Assembly: GCA_003130845.1 (NCBI GenBank)
Contig: QEXW01000066.1
Span: 1 to 32,131 of the forward strand
Length of the DNA stretch: 32,131 bases
Reading direction: 5' to 3'
Origin: Anaerolineae bacterium
GTDB taxonomy: Bacteria > Chloroflexota > Anaerolineae > Anaerolineales > Villigracilaceae
Part shown: one piece after another, positions 37-32,131 of the stretch
Numbering within the stretch: position 1 is the first letter of the stretch
How the letters are laid out: each line of letters opens with the position of its first letter
Made by a program: the position numbers and the translations under genes
Notes under the pieces: model-generated
Told to the model about the DNA's origin: nothing
What the model saw: the letters and a program-made list of their open reading frames with translations, nothing else
The model's database searches: none

Positions 37-1052
37 TAACCGTTCACAACCTCACCAAGTCATTCTCATCCACCCCCGCCGTTAACGGTGTGAACCTGCA
101 CATTGCCCCCGGCGAAATCTACGGCCTGGTCGGCGCGGACGGGGCCGGGAAAACGACCACCATGCGGTTAATCTGCGGGGCGCTGAAACCCGATTCGGGC
201 GAGGTGAGTGTCTGCGGCTTCGACATTCGCCGCCAGACCGAGCAGGCCCGCGAGCGAATCGGCTATCTCTCCCAGCGCTTTTCGCTCTACGAAGACCTGA
301 CCGTGCTGGAAAACATCCGCTTTTTTGCCGAAGTGCGCGGCCTGAAGCCCGATGAGTGGTACCCGCGCTCGCTGGAAATCCTGGAATTCGTGGGCCTGGC
401 AGCCTTCAAAGACCGTTTTGCCGGGCAACTTTCGGGCGGCATGAAACAAAAACTCGGCCTGGCCTCGGCCCTCGTCACCCGCCCGCGCGTTCTCTTGCTC
501 GACGAACCCACCACCGGCGTAGACCCCGTCACCCGGCAGGACTTTTGGCAGTTGATTATTCGGCTGGTGAATCAGTTCCCCGGTTATCCGGTTAACCGGT
601 TCACTGGAAAACCGGATAACCTCCAAACTGGAAAACCGGATAACTGCCAAACCGGAAAACCACACAACGGCGAAGCCAGGGTTTCCGTGCTCATCTCCAC
701 CCCCTACATGGACGAAGCCACCCGCTGCCACCGGGTCGGGTTTATGAAAAAGGGCCGCCTGGTGGCTGAGGGGACGCCCGGCGAACTGCGCGCCCTGCTC
801 GATGGCCGCATTTTGGAACTGCGCGGCAGCCCGCTGGCTGAAATCCGCCACCATGCGGCGGAAGTTCCCGGCGTGGAAAATGTCCAGGCTTTTGGCGACC
901 GGCTACACCTGCGGGTCAGTTCGGGCCAGGCCGCGAGCGTGATGCAGCGCCTCCCGGCCCAACTCCAACTGCTTGGCCTCTCGGTCGACTCCCTGCGTCC
1001 CCTGCCGCCGACGTTGGAGGACGTTTTTATCGCGCTCTCACAGGACGAGTAA
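33..1052 (+). CDS. ABC transporter ATP-binding protein (first of a pair)
   Basis: This is a cytoplasmic ATPase subunit of an ABC exporter of the YbhF/DrrA/CcmA class. Visible motifs are Walker A GADGAGKTT near residue 36, Q-loop YLSQRFSLYEDLT, signature LSGGMKQ, and Walker B LLLDEPTTGVDP. The H-loop position reads STPYMDEA, with proline instead of histidine. From memory this substitution also occurs in the first ATPase of YbhF-like pairs, so it need not mean a dead enzyme. Between Walker B and the H-loop there is an extra stretch of about 30 residues built from repeats of TGKPDN, encoded by a period-24 DNA repeat; family members usually have a few residues here. The gene starts within the stop codon of the preceding gene and ends 18 bp before the SRPBCC gene, so the three form an operon with the second ATPase. 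Confidence 0.9.
   Translation: MITVHNLTKSFSSTPAVNGVNLHIAPGEIYGLVGADGAGKTTTMRLICGALKPDSGEVSVCGFDIRRQTEQARERIGYLSQRFSLYEDLTVLENIRFFAEVRGLKPDEWYPRSLEILEFVGLAAFKDRFAGQLSGGMKQKLGLASALVTRPRVLLLDEPTTGVDPVTRQDFWQLIIRLVNQFPGYPVNRFTGKPDNLQTGKPDNCQTGKPHNGEARVSVLISTPYMDEATRCHRVGFMKKGRLVAEGTPGELRALLDGRILELRGSPLAEIRHHAAEVPGVENVQAFGDRLHLRVSSGQAASVMQRLPAQLQLLGLSVDSLRPLPPTLEDVFIALSQDE
582..670 (+). repeat. In-frame period-24 repeat with inverted repeat inside the ABC gene
   Basis: CTGGAAAACCGGATAAC occurs at 604-620 and 628-644 within a 24-bp period, with a third degenerate copy from 652. The period equals eight codons (TGKPDN plus two residues), so the frame is kept. GGTTATCCGG (582-591) and CCGGATAACC (612-621) form a perfect 10-bp inverted repeat. 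The sequence falls in the H-loop-proximal part of the ABC ATPase, where close relatives have no such insert. Confidence 0.8.
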
Positions 1053-20276: not shown

Positions 20277-21488
20277 TCAGCGCTGAAATCTGTGTAACTC
20301 TTCGAGCAGGAAAGGAATCGTTTCACGAATAGGAATGGTTTTGACTTCATTTGCGTGGCGGGCTTTGATTTCAACCATTTCGTTTTGCAATCCGCGCTCG
20401 CCAACGGTGATGCGGAAGGGACAGCCTATCAGGTCGGCATCATTGAATTTGACACCGGCTCGCTCTGGACGGTCATCGAATAGGACGGAAAAGCCGGCGT
20501 CGGTCAGGGTCTGATAGAGTGTTTCTGCCGCGGGAAGGGTATCGAGCGTTTTGCCCGGCACGTGCATCAGGTAAATTGTGAAAGGGGCAACCGAGGGCGG
20601 CAGGCTCAGGCCTTGTGCATCGTGAAAGGTCTCAGCCAGTGCCAGCAGGATATGCTCGTAGTAATATTCTTCTCTCGAAGCCAATTGCCAGGCTCTGGCA
20701 AGTTGAAGCGCTGCTGCGCATTTGGGGCAGGCTGCTCCAGGGGTTGCAAGCACTAGGTCGGTGATTCGGTCGGCGGTGTAATCCCGGCCATAGTTGGTAT
20801 TGAGCAGGTGATAGCCGGGCTGGTTGGCGCCGGCGACCAAGTTCGGTGAATGAGGAATCAGGTCATCCACAACGATAAGGGCATTTTGGATGCCAATCGG
20901 CGAGGCGTAGCCGGGGATAGCGCCCACTGCGCGGATTTCATCTTCGGTGGCCAGGCGGGTTTCGCCCACCAGGGTGGTCAGTTTGGCCGGGCTGAGCGCA
21001 TGGTCGCCGCGAATGACGACGAAGATGAACTGTCCATCGCTGTTTCGGACGAACATCAGGGCTTTGGCGGTTTTCTCTTGCGGGATGCCCAGAAAGGCGG
21101 CCAGGCTTTCGATGGTGGGGCAGTTGGGGGTCAGGACTTTTTCGAGCGGGGCGGGCCGTTCTGCGGGGGAGAAAACGGTTTTTTTGATGGGAGCAAGTTC
21201 CAGCCGCGCGGCGAAGCCACATGCGGGGCAGTGCAGGATTTCGGTATCGCCGACCTCTATCGGGTAGAAAATCTCATGTTTTCCTAAAAGAGAAAGCCCT
21301 AACTGCGCCAGGAAGCCTGGCTCGCGCGCGATTTGAGTCTGGATGGTTTGCAGGGCGGCCTGGCCAAGCGGCAGCCATTCGCCGCTGTGGGAGAGGTAGC
21401 CAGCACGAATCAAAAAGCCCTGCCCGGTGCTGCGGGCATGGGCAGGGGGTTGGCGATAGGTTTGCAGTGAGAGTGCGGTGTATTTCAT
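20277..21488 (-). CDS. Prolyl-tRNA-synthetase-like protein: editing and anticodon-binding domains without the catalytic motifs
   Basis: The 403 residues align with parts of bacterial ProRS (usually about 570). Residues 23-60 resemble the start of the catalytic core (GFLIRAGYLSHSGEWLPLG). The sequence then jumps to the border of the insertion domain (GDTEILHCPACGFAARLE, 80-97), omitting motif 2. The YbaK-like editing domain is complete: TPNCPTIESLAAFLGIPQEKTAKALMF with the KTAK lysines (139-142), VVIRGDHALS, AIPGYASPIG, and NLVAGANQPGYHLLNTNYGRDY to 236. After ACPKC and RAWQLA the motif-3 stretch (GCYGIGVTR in E. coli) is missing. APFTIYLMHV through DDRPERAGVKFNDADLIGCPFRITVG is a normal anticodon-binding domain. 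It cannot make prolyl-tRNA by the class II mechanism; trans-editing of mischarged tRNA-Pro is the likely role. It overlaps the bactofilin gene by 4 bp. Confidence 0.82.
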   Translation of the reverse strand: MKYTALSLQTYRQPPAHARSTGQGFLIRAGYLSHSGEWLPLGQAALQTIQTQIAREPGFLAQLGLSLLGKHEIFYPIEVGDTEILHCPACGFAARLELAPIKKTVFSPAERPAPLEKVLTPNCPTIESLAAFLGIPQEKTAKALMFVRNSDGQFIFVVIRGDHALSPAKLTTLVGETRLATEDEIRAVGAIPGYASPIGIQNALIVVDDLIPHSPNLVAGANQPGYHLLNTNYGRDYTADRITDLVLATPGAACPKCAAALQLARAWQLASREEYYYEHILLALAETFHDAQGLSLPPSVAPFTIYLMHVPGKTLDTLPAAETLYQTLTDAGFSVLFDDRPERAGVKFNDADLIGCPFRITVGERGLQNEMVEIKARHANEVKTIPIRETIPFLLEELHRFQR

Positions 21489-27890: not shown

Positions 27891-28658
27891 ATGTCAAAGC
27901 GCGGGCTGTTTTTTGCCAAACCATTGATGAATGCGGCCGGGGCTTTGGGTTTTGCACCGGATGTGCGCTTCCCGTGGGATTGGGGGGAATTTGGCGCGTT
28001 TGTCACCAATCCGCTCAGTTGGCGTTCGCGCAATCCAACGGCTGAACCGCTGTTGGCCGAGTACCCAGGAGGGTTTTTGCTTCATACTGGCTTGCCTAAT
28101 CCCGGCTTTGTGCGTGTAAGAGAGCAATATGCGGGGCGCTGGGAGCGCGCCAACCTGCCGGTGATTGTTCATTTGATGGCTGACCGCCCGGAAGAAGCCG
28201 GGCGAATGGTGCAGCATCTGGAATCGCTTGAAAACATCTTGGCCGTTGAATTGGGATTTGCCCCCCTGCTCACCGATGACATCATCTTGAGGGCAGTAGA
28301 AATGTCGGCAGGCGAATTGCCGGTGATTGTCAATTTGCCTTGGGAGCAGGTTTTACGCCTTGGGCCTTTGGTGTTGGCTGCCGGCGCTGAAGCGATTAGC
28401 CTGGCTGCGCCGCGCGGTGCGTTGTGGCTGAACGGGCGGATGGTTTCAGGCCGTTTGTTTGGGCCGGCGCTCTTGGCACAATCGTTGCTGTTGGTGCGCC
28501 AAGCAGCCCAAAGTGGCCTTCCGGTAATTGGGGGTTGTGGAGTGTATTCTAGGGAACATGTCAACGCTATGCTAGAAGCCGGTGCGCTGGCGGTTCAGGT
28601 AGATGCAGTGCTTTGGCGCGGAGGGTTTATCCAAACCAAAACCGCTCATCATGGTTAA
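27891..28658 (+). CDS. Dihydroorotate-dehydrogenase-like TIM-barrel protein, probably not a DHODH
   Basis: A 255-residue protein with the layout of the PyrD family: KPLMNAAGALGFAPD (true enzymes have NP.M.ASG), GAFVTNPLSWRSRNPTAEPLLAEYPGGFLLHTGLPNPG (compare GAIVTKT...PR..ET..GMLN..GLQNPG), and a C-terminal PVIGGCGVYSREHVNAMLEAGALAVQVDAVLW that matches the phosphate-binding end of the FMN barrel. The TKT lysine and the NxSCPN-type segment with the catalytic residues are not visible, and about 50 residues are missing compared with PyrD. It may bind FMN or another phosphate ligand without being a dihydroorotate dehydrogenase. Its last 32 bp overlap the convergent kinase-like gene. Confidence 0.65.
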   Translation: MSKRGLFFAKPLMNAAGALGFAPDVRFPWDWGEFGAFVTNPLSWRSRNPTAEPLLAEYPGGFLLHTGLPNPGFVRVREQYAGRWERANLPVIVHLMADRPEEAGRMVQHLESLENILAVELGFAPLLTDDIILRAVEMSAGELPVIVNLPWEQVLRLGPLVLAAGAEAISLAAPRGALWLNGRMVSGRLFGPALLAQSLLLVRQAAQSGLPVIGGCGVYSREHVNAMLEAGALAVQVDAVLWRGGFIQTKTAHHG

Positions 28659-29595
28659 AGCGCGTGGCATATTCACGCGCAACGTAGGCAGCACGCTGAA
28701 TGAAGGTCTCTTGGCCTTGAGGGTCAGAAACCCACAAAGCCAGGGTGGCAATGTAACTTGCGATGAAATATCCTTCTAGCAAGCGCTCATAATCTGGGGG
28801 CAACGGCATGAATTGGACGTACTCATTCAAAAAGATTGGGTGATAAGCCGTCCGCACGTTTGAAAGACACGTGGCCAAGTCATATGCAAAATGCCCAAAG
28901 GCGCACATCGAAAAATCAATCAGCCGAATTTGTCCCTCATGGAGCAAAAAGTTGCCCCGATGTAAGTCAGCGTGCAATAAACCCCAGGTTTGCGGTGTGC
29001 GTTCTAAGCGATAAGTTTGCTCATTAAGCAAAAAGAGTGCGGTTTCTAGCGTTTGATAGTCGGCGAACGAAATCCGCCCATCTTGGATGGCTGGGCGCAG
29101 AGCCTGCAGAGCGTTTTGAAAATAGGCTGAATCACGCTCTGGGCGTAAAAATTCTACAGGAAATTGCCATTGACTGGCGTGGGCGTGAAGTTTTCCAACC
29201 AGCCTGCCCATTTGCGCGGCGGTTTCTTCGTTTTCCAAATCGCGCCTCATCAACTCGCCCTCTTGCCAGCGCAAGAGCGTAGCATTGACTCTCGCCACCG
29301 GAGAGACATACTCGCCTGCTTTGTTGGCAATCGGTTCTGGCACGGGCAAGCCCTCGCCATGCAGAGCCTTCAGCCACAGCATTTCAGAACAAACCATCTG
29401 CGGATTGGTGCTTTGAGGGACGAATGACTCAAAGCGTGGACTGTGTAAGCGCAACAGAAAGGCCGAAGTGCGGCACGCAATGTGAAAGGTCACGTTCTCG
29501 CTGTGTTGCAAGAACGTGACCATGGTAGGAGAGACATCATAATTTTGCAGTGCCTGATAGGCGATGAGCAGACGTTGGTTGGCGGCGATTGGCAT
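28627..29595 (-). CDS. Aminoglycoside-phosphotransferase-fold kinase
   Basis: A 322-residue protein of the APH/choline-kinase/homoserine-kinase II fold. The catalytic loop is HADLHRGN (208-215) and the metal-binding segment IDFSMCAFGHFAYDLA (226 onward) takes the place of DFG. The N-lobe has FLLRLHSP at the ATP lysine-type position (with Arg rather than Lys) and EMLWLKAL. The substrate is unknown; small alcohols or amino acids are phosphorylated by relatives, and antibiotic resistance should not be assumed. It is the last gene of a minus-strand series after dtd (4 bp gap) and overlaps the convergent gene by 32 bp. Confidence 0.85.
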   Translation of the reverse strand: MPIAANQRLLIAYQALQNYDVSPTMVTFLQHSENVTFHIACRTSAFLLRLHSPRFESFVPQSTNPQMVCSEMLWLKALHGEGLPVPEPIANKAGEYVSPVARVNATLLRWQEGELMRRDLENEETAAQMGRLVGKLHAHASQWQFPVEFLRPERDSAYFQNALQALRPAIQDGRISFADYQTLETALFLLNEQTYRLERTPQTWGLLHADLHRGNFLLHEGQIRLIDFSMCAFGHFAYDLATCLSNVRTAYHPIFLNEYVQFMPLPPDYERLLEGYFIASYIATLALWVSDPQGQETFIQRAAYVAREYATRFNHDERFWFG

Positions 29596-29599
29596 ACTT

Positions 29600-30037
29600 C
29601 TATCGTTCTAACCACAAGGTTACCGGGCCGTCGTTGTGAATTTCGACCAACATTTCGGCCCCAAAAACGCCCTCGCCGACCGTAAGCCCTTGTGCGCGCA
29701 ACAAATTGGCAAAGCGCTCCACGAGTGGGCGTGCCACTTCTGGCAAAGCAGCCTCGGTAAAGGAAGGGCGGCGACCCTTTTGCGCATCGGCATAGAGCGT
29801 AAACTGACTGACCACAATGGCTGCCCCACCCACGTCTTTGACGGAGAGATTCATCTTGCCGGCCTCATCCTCAAAAATCCGTAAGTGCGCAATTTTTTCC
29901 GCCATCCAGGCCGCTTGCTCCTCACCATCGTGATGGCCTATGCCCAGCAAAATCACCAAGCCGCGTGCAATTTCGGCGGTGATGTGGCCTTGCACACTCA
30001 CCTTTGCGTATCGTACACGTTGTATCAGGGCTCGCAT
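29600..30037 (-). CDS. dtd: D-aminoacyl-tRNA deacylase
   Basis: It hydrolyses D-amino acids (and glycine from tRNA-Ala) from mischarged tRNAs. The 145-residue protein has the family start [17 protein letters not shown], the catalytic SQFTLYAD motif (77-84) and the cross-subunit GPVT motif (137-140) of the homodimer. [11 protein letters not shown] is also characteristic. It lies downstream of trpS (77 bp gap with a dyad) and 4 bp upstream of the kinase-like gene. No strong ribosome binding site is visible. Confidence 0.96.
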
Positions 30038-30074
30038 GTTCGTTTAAAGTACCTTTTGTTGCGTTGATGCGCAC

Positions 30075-30102
30075 AAGACCGATGTGGCATAGCATTGGTC
30101 TT
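30075..30102. repeat. Dyad between trpS and dtd
   Basis: AAGACCGATG (30075-30084) pairs with CATTGGTCTT (30093-30102) around an 8-nt loop, with one mismatch. There is no T-tract on the minus strand, so it may weaken rather than stop readthrough from trpS into dtd, or be a protein-binding site. Confidence 0.5.
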
Positions 30103-30114
30103 TATGGGTGTTGC

Positions 30115-31104
30115 TCATTTGGGTAACTGAATGGCCTCCCGCACAGCCACCATCGTCTCCTCGGCAATCGCGCGAGCGCGTTGACCACCATCGTGCAGCA
30201 CGTCCCAGACGTGATTGGGGTTTTGGGCAATTTCGGCCCGTTTTTGGCGGAAAGGCTCTAGGTGTTTGTTCAAATTTTCCGCGAAGCGTTTTTTGCAATC
30301 CACGCACCCGATGCCCGCTCGCCGGCATTCGGTGTTAATCATCTCAACTTCATCTGCCGGAGAGAAAACTTTGTGCATGGAGAAGACGTTGCACACGTCC
30401 GGGTTGCCTGGGTCGGTGCGCCGCACGCGTTGAGGGTCGGTGACCATTTGCATGACGCGCTGGCGCGTTTCTTCTGGTGTGGCTGCTAGTTCAATGTGAT
30501 TGTTTAGGCTTTTGCCCATTTTTTGCTGCCCATCAATGCCCAACACCTTTGGCACTTCAGTTGTCTTCATCTGCGGTTCTTTGAGCACGTTGGTGCCAAA
30601 GCGGTAATTGAACGAGCGCACTGTCTCGCGGGCAAATTCAAGGTGCGGCGCCTGGTCCACGCCGACCGGGACGATGTCGGTGCGATACAGAACGATGTCA
30701 GCCGTCATCAGAACGGGGTATCCCACCAGGCCGTAGTTGACATTGTCGGGATTTTCGCGCACTTTTTCTTTGAAGGTGGGCAGGTCGGTGAGTTTGCCCA
30801 AGGGGGTGACCATCGAAAGGTACGTGTGCAATTCCATCACCTGCGGCACATGGCTTTGGACGAAGACAATGGACTCTTCCGGGCGAATACCGGCGGCGAG
30901 CCAGTCGAGCGCCATATCGTAGGTGTTGTTTCTCAGGTCTTTGGTGGTTTCCACCGTAGTCAAGGCATGTACATCTACAATGCAATATACGCAGTCAAAT
31001 TCATCTTGCAGCGCAACATAGTTTTTGATGGCGCCCAAATAGTTGCCAAGATGTTGCCGCCCGGTAGGGCGGGCGCCCGAAAAAACACGGCCTTTCTTCG
31101 ACAT
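30115..31104 (-). CDS. trpS: Tryptophanyl-tRNA synthetase
   Basis: A class I synthetase of 329 residues that charges tRNA-Trp. It shows the HIGH-type motif GRQHLGNY (15-22), the KMSKS-type motif KMGKS (195-199), YPVLMTADIVLY and VPVGVDQAPHLEFARE for tryptophan and ATP binding, and the four cysteines of an extra C-terminal cluster (VCNVF..., CRRAGIGCVDCKKRF). In some bacterial TrpRS such cysteines bind a metal or iron-sulfur cluster; here that is inferred from the spacing. The ribosome binding site GAGGGA overlaps the stop of the upstream selenoprotein gene, with 6 bp between the two genes, so they are co-transcribed. Confidence 0.96.
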   Translation of the reverse strand: MSKKGRVFSGARPTGRQHLGNYLGAIKNYVALQDEFDCVYCIVDVHALTTVETTKDLRNNTYDMALDWLAAGIRPEESIVFVQSHVPQVMELHTYLSMVTPLGKLTDLPTFKEKVRENPDNVNYGLVGYPVLMTADIVLYRTDIVPVGVDQAPHLEFARETVRSFNYRFGTNVLKEPQMKTTEVPKVLGIDGQQKMGKSLNNHIELAATPEETRQRVMQMVTDPQRVRRTDPGNPDVCNVFSMHKVFSPADEVEMINTECRRAGIGCVDCKKRFAENLNKHLEPFRQKRAEIAQNPNHVWDVLHDGGQRARAIAEETMVAVREAIQLPK

Positions 31105-31110
31105 TTTCCC

Positions 31111-31353
31111 TCACGAGTGTAAAAATTTTTGGACTAGACCGGCAATTTCACCTGGTTCGGCATGTCGCCGGGTTTGAAGTTTCGAATACATCAGTTGGTT
31201 GTTGACGACGACCTCGAACTTGCCGCCATCGGAAGGAATCAGAGTCAACGATTCGATTTCCGGCTCGTACATTTTCAGCAATTCACTGGCCAGGCTCACG
31301 GCCCGGTCGGTGTAATGTCAAACAGCGCAATAGGTGACCTCGATTTTGAGCAT
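31111..31353 (-). CDS. SelW/Rdx-family selenoprotein, in-frame TGA read as selenocysteine
   Basis: From ATG 31353 the frame reads MLKIEVTYCAV, then TGA at 31318-31320, then HYTDRAVSLASELL. It continues in the same frame to a second TGA at 31111-31113, for 80 residues. The TGA falls at residue 12 of YC-A-V-U, the C-x-x-U redox motif of the thioredoxin-like SelT/SelW/SelH (Rdx) family. The downstream part (EIESLTLIPSDGGKFEVVVNNQLMYSK, then AEPGEIAGLV) matches the family and is useless without the first strand and motif. A SECIS-like hairpin starts right after the TGA. An extended -10 promoter and GGAG with 8-nt spacing support the ATG. An ORF finder reports only the 62 codons from GTG 31299. 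Function: thiol/selenol redox, exact partner unknown. It is followed 6 bp later by trpS. Confidence 0.88.
31284..31320 (-). promoter_or_regulatory. Bacterial SECIS-like hairpin downstream of the selenocysteine TGA
   Basis: Starting 11 nt after the TGA, CCGGGC pairs with GCCUGG (six pairs, one G-U) around the loop CGUGA, whose second base is G. Below it is a 3x3 internal loop and CAC-GUG. Distance, stem length and loop G agree with the bacterial consensus bound by SelB, as in E. coli fdhF. The GUG in the loop is also the false start of the 62-codon reading. Confidence 0.72.
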
Positions 31354-31383
31354 GTTTTTTACTCCGGGGATGAACTTGCGCGA

Positions 31384-31392
31384 ATTATAACA
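31384..31392 (-). promoter_or_regulatory. Extended -10 promoter of the selenoprotein-trpS operon
   Basis: The minus strand has TGTTATAAT, i.e. a TGn extension plus a perfect TATAAT. The -35 region is weak, which is normal for extended -10 promoters. The transcript would start near 31377 and carry GGAG (31362-31365) 8 nt before ATG 31353. Confidence 0.65.
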
Positions 31393-31407
31393 TGTTGGGC
31401 TTGACGC

Positions 31408-31512
31408 TTAACCTAAATCCTGATAGACTCTGCGTCCGCCCGCAGTGACCAGCATCTTTTCGTTTGCCAGGATGACTGCGTTAAGGCTGCTGTGTTTGCG
31501 CGGCTGGGCCGG
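31408..31512 (-). pseudogene. Possible C-terminal remnant of a propeller/PQQ-like protein
   Basis: Between an in-frame TAG and a TAA, 34 codons encode a peptide ending NAVILANEKMLVTAGGRRVYQDLG, which looks like the last blade of a PQQ- or WD-type propeller. There is no start codon in a suitable place. It could be the decayed end of a lost gene or chance. Confidence 0.25.
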
Positions 31513-31558
31513 CTAGTACCTTTCCATGCGTAAGTGGCCGATTCCACTTCAACCCCCC

Positions 31559-31587
31559 TTGTTGTAGTGGAAAGCGTTTGGTATAAT
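31559..31587 (+). promoter_or_regulatory. Promoter of the tRNA-tuf operon
   Basis: TTGTTG (31559-31564) and a perfect TATAAT (31582-31587) are 17 bp apart. The transcript would start near 31594, about 40 bp upstream of the first tRNA. The -10 box continues as TGCCCCGC, as at 5385. A hairpin AAGTGG-CCGATT-CCACTT lies just upstream (31532-31549). Confidence 0.75.
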
Positions 31588-31589
31588 TG

Positions 31590-31626
31590 CCCCGCTTAAT
31601 GCGGGGCGCGCCCGCCCAAAGCGGGC
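31590..31626 (+). repeat. Two GC-rich hairpins in the tRNA operon leader
   Basis: CCCCGC-TTAAT-GCGGGG (31590-31606) and GCCCGC-CCAAA-GCGGGC (31610-31626) are perfect 6-bp stems with 5-nt loops. They fill the space between promoter and first tRNA and may act in processing of the 5' leader or in growth-rate control. Confidence 0.65.
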
Positions 31627-31631
31627 ATGCC

Positions 31632-31704
31632 GCCGACGTAGCTCAATCGGCAGAGCACCCGCCTTGTAAGCGGGCGGTTACGGGTTCGATTCCCGTCGTC
31701 GGCT
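31632..31704 (+). tRNA. tRNA-Thr (anticodon UGU)
   Basis: A 73-nt cloverleaf with acceptor GCCGACG/CGTCGGC, D-arm AGCTCAATCGGCAGAGC, anticodon stem CCCGC/GCGGG with loop CTTGTAA (anticodon TGT, reads ACA) and T-arm ACGGGTTCGATTCCCGT. Discriminator U, and CCA is encoded (31705-31707). Confidence 0.97.
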
Positions 31705-31711
31705 CCATTAT

Positions 31712-31753
31712 TGACTGGCGTTTGGGGCCAGGTATGACCCCAAACTCGAGTCA
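31712..31753 (+). repeat. Long hairpin between tRNA-Thr and tRNA-Tyr
   Basis: TGACT-GGC-GTTTGGGG pairs with CCCCAAAC-TCG-AGTCA around a 10-nt loop: an upper stem of 8 bp, a mostly unpaired 3x3 stretch, and a lower stem of 5 bp. No T-tract follows. It may be an RNase III-type processing site between the tRNAs or a mobile palindromic unit. Confidence 0.65.
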
Positions 31754-31778
31754 GTAATGACTCTAACAATCGAATTGT

Positions 31779-31861
31779 GGGCAGTTACCCAAGTGGCCAA
31801 AGGGGGCTGACTGTAAATCAGCTGGCAGACGCCTTCGGAGGTTCGAATCCTTCACTGCCCA
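31779..31861 (+). tRNA. tRNA-Tyr (anticodon GUA)
   Basis: An 83-nt class II tRNA with acceptor GGGCAGT/ACTGCCC, anticodon stem GCTGA/TCAGC with loop CTGTAAA (anticodon GTA), a long variable arm (TGGCAGACGCCTTC region) and T-arm GGAGGTTCGAATCCTTC. Discriminator A. CCA is not encoded. A small CCCGG-TTTAT-CCGGG hairpin follows at 31867-31881. Confidence 0.96.
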
Positions 31862-31892
31862 CCTTTCCCGGTTTATCCGGGCAGCACAATCA

Positions 31893-31965
31893 GCCCTCAT
31901 AGCTCAGTCGGCAGAGCACAGTCTTGGTAAGACTGGGGTCATGGGTTCAAATCCCATTGAGGGCT
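31893..31965 (+). tRNA. tRNA-Thr (anticodon GGU)
   Basis: A 73-nt cloverleaf with acceptor GCCCTCA/TGAGGGC, D-arm AGCTCAGTCGGCAGAGC, anticodon stem CAGTC/GACTG with loop TTGGTAA (anticodon GGT, reads ACC/ACU) and T-arm ATGGGTTCAAATCCCAT. Discriminator U. CCA is not encoded. Only 31 bp separate it from tRNA-Tyr, so there is no room for the glycine tRNA found here in the E. coli operon. Confidence 0.96.
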
Positions 31966-32014
31966 CAGTTGCTGAATATGCACTCTGTTCATTTTTTGTT
32001 AAGGAGAGTGAATC

Positions 32015-32131
32015 ATGGCGAAGCAGAAATTCGACCGCAGCAAACCGCACCTGAACGTGGGAACGATGGGCCACATTGACCACGGCAAGACGACCCTGAC
32101 GGCGGCGATTACGAAAGTAGCGGCGTTGATG
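32015..32131 (+). CDS. tuf: Elongation factor Tu (5' part, runs off the window)
   Basis: The 39 visible residues start [32 protein letters not shown], the EF-Tu N-terminus with its P-loop GHIDHGKT (20-27). AAGGAG at 32001-32006 precedes the ATG. EF-Tu brings aminoacyl-tRNA to the ribosome. The gene follows the tRNA array by 49 bp with no terminator between, as in the thr-tyr-gly-thr-tufB operons of other bacteria. Confidence 0.97.

Follow-up and report, generated by a model that had tools for sequence, protein, structure and literature searches.

A TGA triplet interrupts a short reading frame on the minus strand of the window (the whole stretch of DNA that was analysed, 32,131 nucleotides). 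The question is whether this codon is a stop, an error or a site at which selenocysteine (Sec) is inserted. An earlier note on this DNA had read the frame as a hidden selenoprotein gene. We conclude, with a probability of about 0.96, that the locus is a bacterial SelW-like (Rdx, SelT/W/H) selenoprotein gene whose codon-12 UGA is decoded as Sec.

A SelW-like gene with an in-frame TGA

31353..31111, minus strand: rdx/selW-like selenoprotein gene of 80 codons and a stop, Sec at codon 12
31320-31318, minus strand: Sec-UGA codon (codon 12) of the motif CAVU (C-A-V-U, residues 9-12)

The translation reads MLKIEVTYCAV*HYTDRAV...FLHS*, where the asterisk at codon 12 is the TGA, and the terminal stop is a second TGA (31113-31111, minus strand). 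The ATG at 31353, the TGA at codon 12 in C-x-x-U and the stop at 31111, as placed by the earlier note, agree with this translation. That note had also claimed that homologous coding sequence flanks the TGA within a single frame, and profile searches bear it out. Pfam Rdx (PF10262) matches residues 3-75 across the TGA in a single frame (67.4 bits against a cut-off of 22.6), and NCBIfam TIGR02174 (CXXU_selWTH) scores the 80-residue protein at 52.3 bits against a cut-off of 34.2. The narrower profile NF041051 (SelTWH_Campy) gave 73.8 bits, under its cut-off of 88. Across the genome the only PF10262 match is the window gene, with one TGA inside the match. As expected of a gene said to be missed by standard gene callers, rdx is absent as one gene from an ordinary table 11 listing of open reading frames of at least 80 amino acids. 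These results confirm that a gene of the Rdx/SelW family with an in-frame TGA is real.

We also examined the predicted fold. An AlphaFold model of the 80-residue protein (alignment of 28 sequences) has a mean pLDDT of 96.6, with a predicted strand at residues 2-9 and a predicted helix at 15-32, so that the CAVU motif at 9-12 would follow the first strand. The top solved matches of the model (ranks 1-21) are bacterial homologues, several of them titled SelW-related, with TM scores by query of 0.84-0.89. The bacterial SelW-related structures 2fa8, 2p0g, 2obk and 3dex share the fold at these TM scores, whereas the window protein is only 24-32% identical to them in sequence. A sequence profile search of the PDB found 2fa8 at 1.1e-23 and mouse selenoprotein W (2npb) at 1.5e-7; the mouse protein belongs to the same superfamily (TM 0.67, rank 23) and presumably carries CxxU as well. 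In eukaryotic SelW the SECIS element lies in the 3' UTR, unlike that of the window's bacterial gene. In the model, then, the product has a predicted thioredoxin-like fold in which the CxxU redox pair comes next to the first strand, at its end. Fold and motif together make it probable that the protein acts as a thiol/selenol oxidoreductase. One published study mentions an interaction with glutathione (PMC1088965).

Codon 12 in relatives and the selenocysteine machinery

The earlier note had proposed aligning Rdx proteins across relatives to see which codons occupy the TGA column. In the 170 loci that we read, which are partly non-independent, the column holds TGA in 147, TGC in 12 and TGT in 11, and nothing else, as would be expected of a Sec site. 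Because the column holds only TGA or a Cys codon, a chance TGA is excluded. The ratio of TGA to Cys is not a sample, since sets of loci were picked by their marking as TGA or stop-free.

Three sets make up these loci. The 71 loci from genomes of the same class, the window's included, comprise 68 with TGA and 3 with TGT; 40 of the 71 were picked from rows already marked TGA, and the 30 best-scoring ones comprise 27 TGA and 3 Cys. All 20 copies picked as stop-free (6 rows from the class and 14 from a search of the phylum) have Cys, as TGC in 12 and TGT in 8. Among loci from named genomes, 79 were readable of the best 80 of 234 confirmed relatives, and all 79 have TGA. The patterns used in this last search assume a Cys codon or avoid the column, so the set does not favour TGA, and some of its loci are probably the same records as class loci. 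The closest relative with a name among those best 80 is Anaerolineales bacterium SKYG2 (Chloroflexota; 93% identical), and the titles all belong to Chloroflexota or groups within it. The 147 TGA rows reduce to 134 distinct 42-nt stretches. A scan of viral contigs found no rdx relative. One further Rdx copy (L157) has no readable CxxU or CxxC start in frame, is seemingly broken and was left out of the counts; its assembly (JACRMH) also yields an intact locus (L125).

We then considered how Rdx copies are distributed with SelB. Rdx was found in 179 of 396 genomes of the class and, in TGA and stop-free forms, in 138 of 301 genomes of the phylum. By the rows listed, at least 141 class genomes have a TGA copy and at least 8 a stop-free copy, with 5 having both. 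SelB (E of 1e-60 or better) is present in 133 of the 141 genomes with a listed TGA copy, in none of the three that have only stop-free copies and in 147 of the 217 class genomes without Rdx; this comparison omits 35 of the 179 Rdx genomes, those without a listed row, of which 34 have SelB. The presence of SelB therefore goes with TGA copies, the Cys-only contrast group being three genomes. The eight TGA genomes without a SelB match are 55-96% complete. Absent contigs may explain several of these cases, but not those of G278 (96%) or G057 (91%).

The source is a draft genome of 159 contigs with 2.63% contamination. The earlier note had suggested searching it for selA, selB, tRNA-Sec and selD, and the first three are present above their cut-offs. 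By profile search, SelB scores 357 bits (cut-off 242.25) and SelA 531.8 bits (cut-off 267.9); tRNA-Sec scores 78.3 (cut-off 47), and ARAGORN names it tRNA-SeC with anticodon tca. All three loci sit on contigs other than the rdx contig. In controls with 14 known genomes, SelB passed its cut-off in 2, SelA in 1 and tRNA-Sec in 5, so the tRNA-Sec model alone is not fully specific. For selD the search yielded only a fragment below the cut-off at a contig end, and no SelD match in the source genome reaches the 125-bit cut-off. The fragment, at the end of contig C30, scores 37.8 bits over model positions 1-60 and contains a TGA within SSCAG*ASKLN. The TGA of SSCAG*ASK stands at what we take to be the catalytic Sec/Cys site of SelD, and a seven-pair hairpin with the loop GUU lies 33 nt downstream of this UGA. 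This SelD-like fragment (L020, 1501-1683), cut by the contig end, is probably a second selenoprotein gene of the genome. Contig C75 has a longer, stop-free match to the SelD model of 67.4 bits, also below the cut-off.

Two readings of codon 12 other than Sec bear on these data. UGA could be read as Trp or Gly through a change of the code, or by near-cognate readthrough with tRNA-Trp. UGA is near-cognate to tRNA-Trp, and trpS adjoins the gene, which would suit such a reading. Against it, all 23 stop-free copies that we read have Cys as the sense residue at the column, the genome encodes SelA, SelB and tRNA-Sec, and a SECIS-like hairpin lies downstream of the codon. Moreover, the window gene and 23 of the 79 named loci end in TGA, so UGA stops translation elsewhere. 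We regard a Trp or Gly reading as very improbable. A pseudogene or sequencing error, with the TGA a mutated or miscalled TGC or TGT, is yet harder to credit. The genome is a draft and TGA is one base away from the Cys codons, but TGA recurs in 147 of 170 loci from many assemblies, with the frame conserved on both sides, and in 79 of 79 named loci from a set unselected for TGA.

The note's view that the organism decodes UGA as Sec is supported by selA, selB and tRNA-Sec, by the TGA-or-Cys column and by the SECIS-like hairpin. Gene, frame, family, fold, machinery (selD in part) and the conservation of codon and hairpin are results of computation. Sec insertion and redox activity we infer from established knowledge of the pathway. 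By that knowledge, SelA would convert Ser-tRNA-Sec to Sec-tRNA-Sec with selenophosphate supplied by SelD, and SelB would bring the Sec-tRNA-Sec to the ribosome and bind a hairpin just 3' of the UGA. Codon 12 would then be read as selenocysteine, translation would continue to codon 80, and the CxxU pair would perform thiol/selenol redox chemistry.

A conserved hairpin in two registers

31306-31290, minus strand: bacterial SECIS hairpin with the sequence CCGGGC-CGUGA-GCCUGG and its loop 17 nt downstream of the UGA, part of the minimum free energy structure

From the UGA onward, 41 nt fold with an energy of -13.2 kcal/mol, and this hairpin is their core (z -2.45; 4 of 200 shuffles are as good). 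For the window sequence alone, 9% of synonymous recodings fold as well, leaving its energy unexceptional. The evidence for a SECIS element lies in the set of loci, not in the single window sequence.

We therefore compared pairing across loci with that in synonymous recodings, using pair counts on sets not chosen by pairing and leaving out per-register shuffles on sets chosen by pairing. In the 22 loci of the window's family, all six pairs of this near hairpin are present in 19 and the inner five in all 22; on average 5.86 of 6 pairs are observed, compared with 4.39 in synonymous recodings. The 46 other TGA loci of the class, which were not selected by pairing, average 5.83 of 6 pairs compared with 4.34 in recodings. 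No clear excess appears in the three Cys loci (3.33 pairs compared with 3.19). At +18/+30, both third codon positions, the 46 other TGA loci have CG in 36, GC in 7, TA in 3 and no mismatch. In the family, +15/+25 changes from GC (19 loci) to AT (3 loci) while Arg and Leu are kept. Of the 134 distinct stretches, 88% form every one of the six pairs in one or other register, compared with 27% in synonymous recodings (40% at the highest among 1000); in 7 of the 134, the inner five pairs are complete in neither register. The recodings also show that amino-acid bias alone yields part of both hairpins. Taken together, these comparisons show that the hairpin is kept across relatives beyond the demands of the protein, and in the family the near hairpin is a likely SelB binding site.

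The two registers differ in position and loop. The typical hairpin of the 46 other TGA class loci is CCGUCA-GUU-UGACGG, with its loop 22 nt after the UGA and six pairs in 38 of the 46. In the window's family the hairpin lies five nt closer to the UGA and has a different loop (CGUGA). Both are built on one codon stretch, RAVSL in the window. Family loci keep five of the six far pairs in 12 of 22 cases, and all 22 have G opposite G at +21/+27. The six far pairs are complete in four loci from other families of the same order, and the near inner five are possible as well in two of these (L073, L075). In ten of the 134 stretches, including L094 and L103, the inner five pairs are possible in both registers. 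A tree of the linked TrpS proteins (87 of 97 TrpS rows, made by a quick method and with a doubtful root) needs three changes between registers when only rows assigned to one or the other are counted, so a single origin of the shift is not established. By eye, two further loci (L168, L171) have a hairpin GGCCGU-AGGU-ACGGCC outside the two main registers.

It is an even call whether, within one gene family, the recoding signal changed its position and left the protein almost unaltered, with SelB accepting two registers and loops as well as a third spacing, the 33 nt of the selD fragment. Spacing, loop length and loop sequence vary across these SECIS variants and the protein changes little. Natural variants in two registers of one conserved gene could thus serve as a test bed for what SelB needs of its hairpin.

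The trpS neighbourhood and comparison with known selenoproteins

31365..31362, minus strand: ribosome binding site GGAG, 8 nt before the ATG
31389-31384, minus strand: TATAAT, a possible and perfect -10 box, without a clear -35
30115..31104, minus strand: trpS, tryptophan--tRNA ligase (TIGR00233, 285.6 bits against a cut-off of 176.75), starting 6 nt after the rdx stop

A good promoter and ribosome binding site had been claimed upstream of the TGA. The GGAG site stands, and GGAG or GAGG occurs in 20 of 21 upstream stretches from the family. The promoter stands only in part: the -10 box is perfect, but there is no clear -35, and a consensus promoter scan of this strand from 29900 to 31640 returned no promoter-like site and no -35 box.

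The gene for TrpS lies downstream of rdx in all 22 family loci and in 71 of the 79 named loci, two sets that overlap. Among the 49 other class loci it was found in 4, all of the same order (L073-L076), some of the stretches being short. A general link between rdx and trpS across the class was considered and rejected, with no trpS found downstream in 45 of these 49 loci. By a simple start rule, 12 of 22 family loci (median gap 19.5 nt, range 3-213) and 51 of the 71 named loci have no more than 30 nt between the two genes; close spacing is common, not general. Because rdx precedes trpS, often by few nucleotides, failed Sec insertion under selenium shortage might lower trpS translation and couple selenium to tryptophan charging, a possibility that we consider unlikely.

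The same arrangement raises the idea of two short genes, an 11-residue leader peptide (perhaps a trpS attenuator) followed by a separate or re-initiated frame; a short open reading frame, a hairpin and a downstream aminoacyl-tRNA synthetase do give the outline of leader control, but the Rdx match runs across the TGA without a change of frame (residues 3-75), the predicted first strand of the fold precedes the TGA, the 11-residue peptide has no Trp, and 46 of the 49 other class loci have the TGA while 45 have no trpS found downstream, so that we give this idea hardly any weight.

In the Sec reading, UGA serves as both Sec and stop in one gene, because rdx also ends in TGA. TGA is the terminal stop in 2 of 22 family loci, one of them the window's, and in 23 of the 79 named loci. 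Counted from the terminal UGA of the window gene, bases 10-42 have a folding energy of -6.3 kcal/mol.

Other features of the window were observed alongside. Downstream of trpS (28627-30037, minus strand) lie a D-Tyr-tRNA(Tyr) deacylase gene (dtd) and an APH-family kinase gene. A 403-residue ProRS-like protein (20277-21488, minus strand) has aminoacyl-tRNA editing and anticodon-binding domains; no Pfam class II catalytic core matched it at E 0.001, and it is possibly a shortened paralogue. The region 31632-32131 (plus strand) holds genes for tRNA-Thr(tgt), tRNA-Tyr(gta) and tRNA-Thr(ggt) and, after them at the contig end (32054-32125), a stretch that the beginning of the SelB model matches over 24 positions, and contig C42 begins with an equal-scoring match; this is probably an EF-Tu gene repeat at which the assembly broke. 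A 24-bp tandem repeat of 2.5 copies (603-661, plus strand) lies in frame in an ABC transporter ATPase reading frame (33-1052) and adds TGKPDN-like repeats after the ABC_tran match (residues 18-161).

Bacterial SelW-like CxxU selenoproteins have been described since 2005, and that work gives SelW-like as the most abundant selenoprotein family of the Sargasso Sea set, with 48 genes (PMC1088965). Other papers report 427 selenoproteins in the GOS set (PMC2398784), list SelW-like in a table of families with few Cys forms in Sec-using organisms (PMC1794560), and include a table row for Rdx with CxxU (PMC9312934). Since CxxU SelW-like selenoproteins have long been described, the window gene is another member of a known family. 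What it adds is a selenoprotein present in many Anaerolineae genomes that gene finders can easily overlook. Two of the observations are perhaps less familiar, the near register in the window's family and the position of trpS after rdx in 22 of 22 of its loci. Among the matches listed in a literature search, no title or abstract opening concerned SelW in Anaerolineae, an rdx-trpS operon or moving SECIS registers; this absence is weak evidence of novelty, most subscription journals being outside its scope.

The published bacterial SECIS model has a loop of 3-9 nt, an upper stem of 4-16 bp, a distance of 16-37 nt from the UGA, a G in the first two loop positions and an energy of -7.5 or lower (PMC13188914). 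By these values CCGGGC-CGUGA-GCCUGG fits the model: it lies 17 nt from the UGA, close to the lower limit of the spacing, in a 41-nt stretch that folds at -13.2 kcal/mol. The window gene resembles the known bacterial SelW-like selenoproteins (PF10262, TIGR02174) in its CxxU motif, its profile and its SECIS within the coding sequence, and it differs from them in its Anaerolineales host, its trpS neighbour and its nearer SECIS register.
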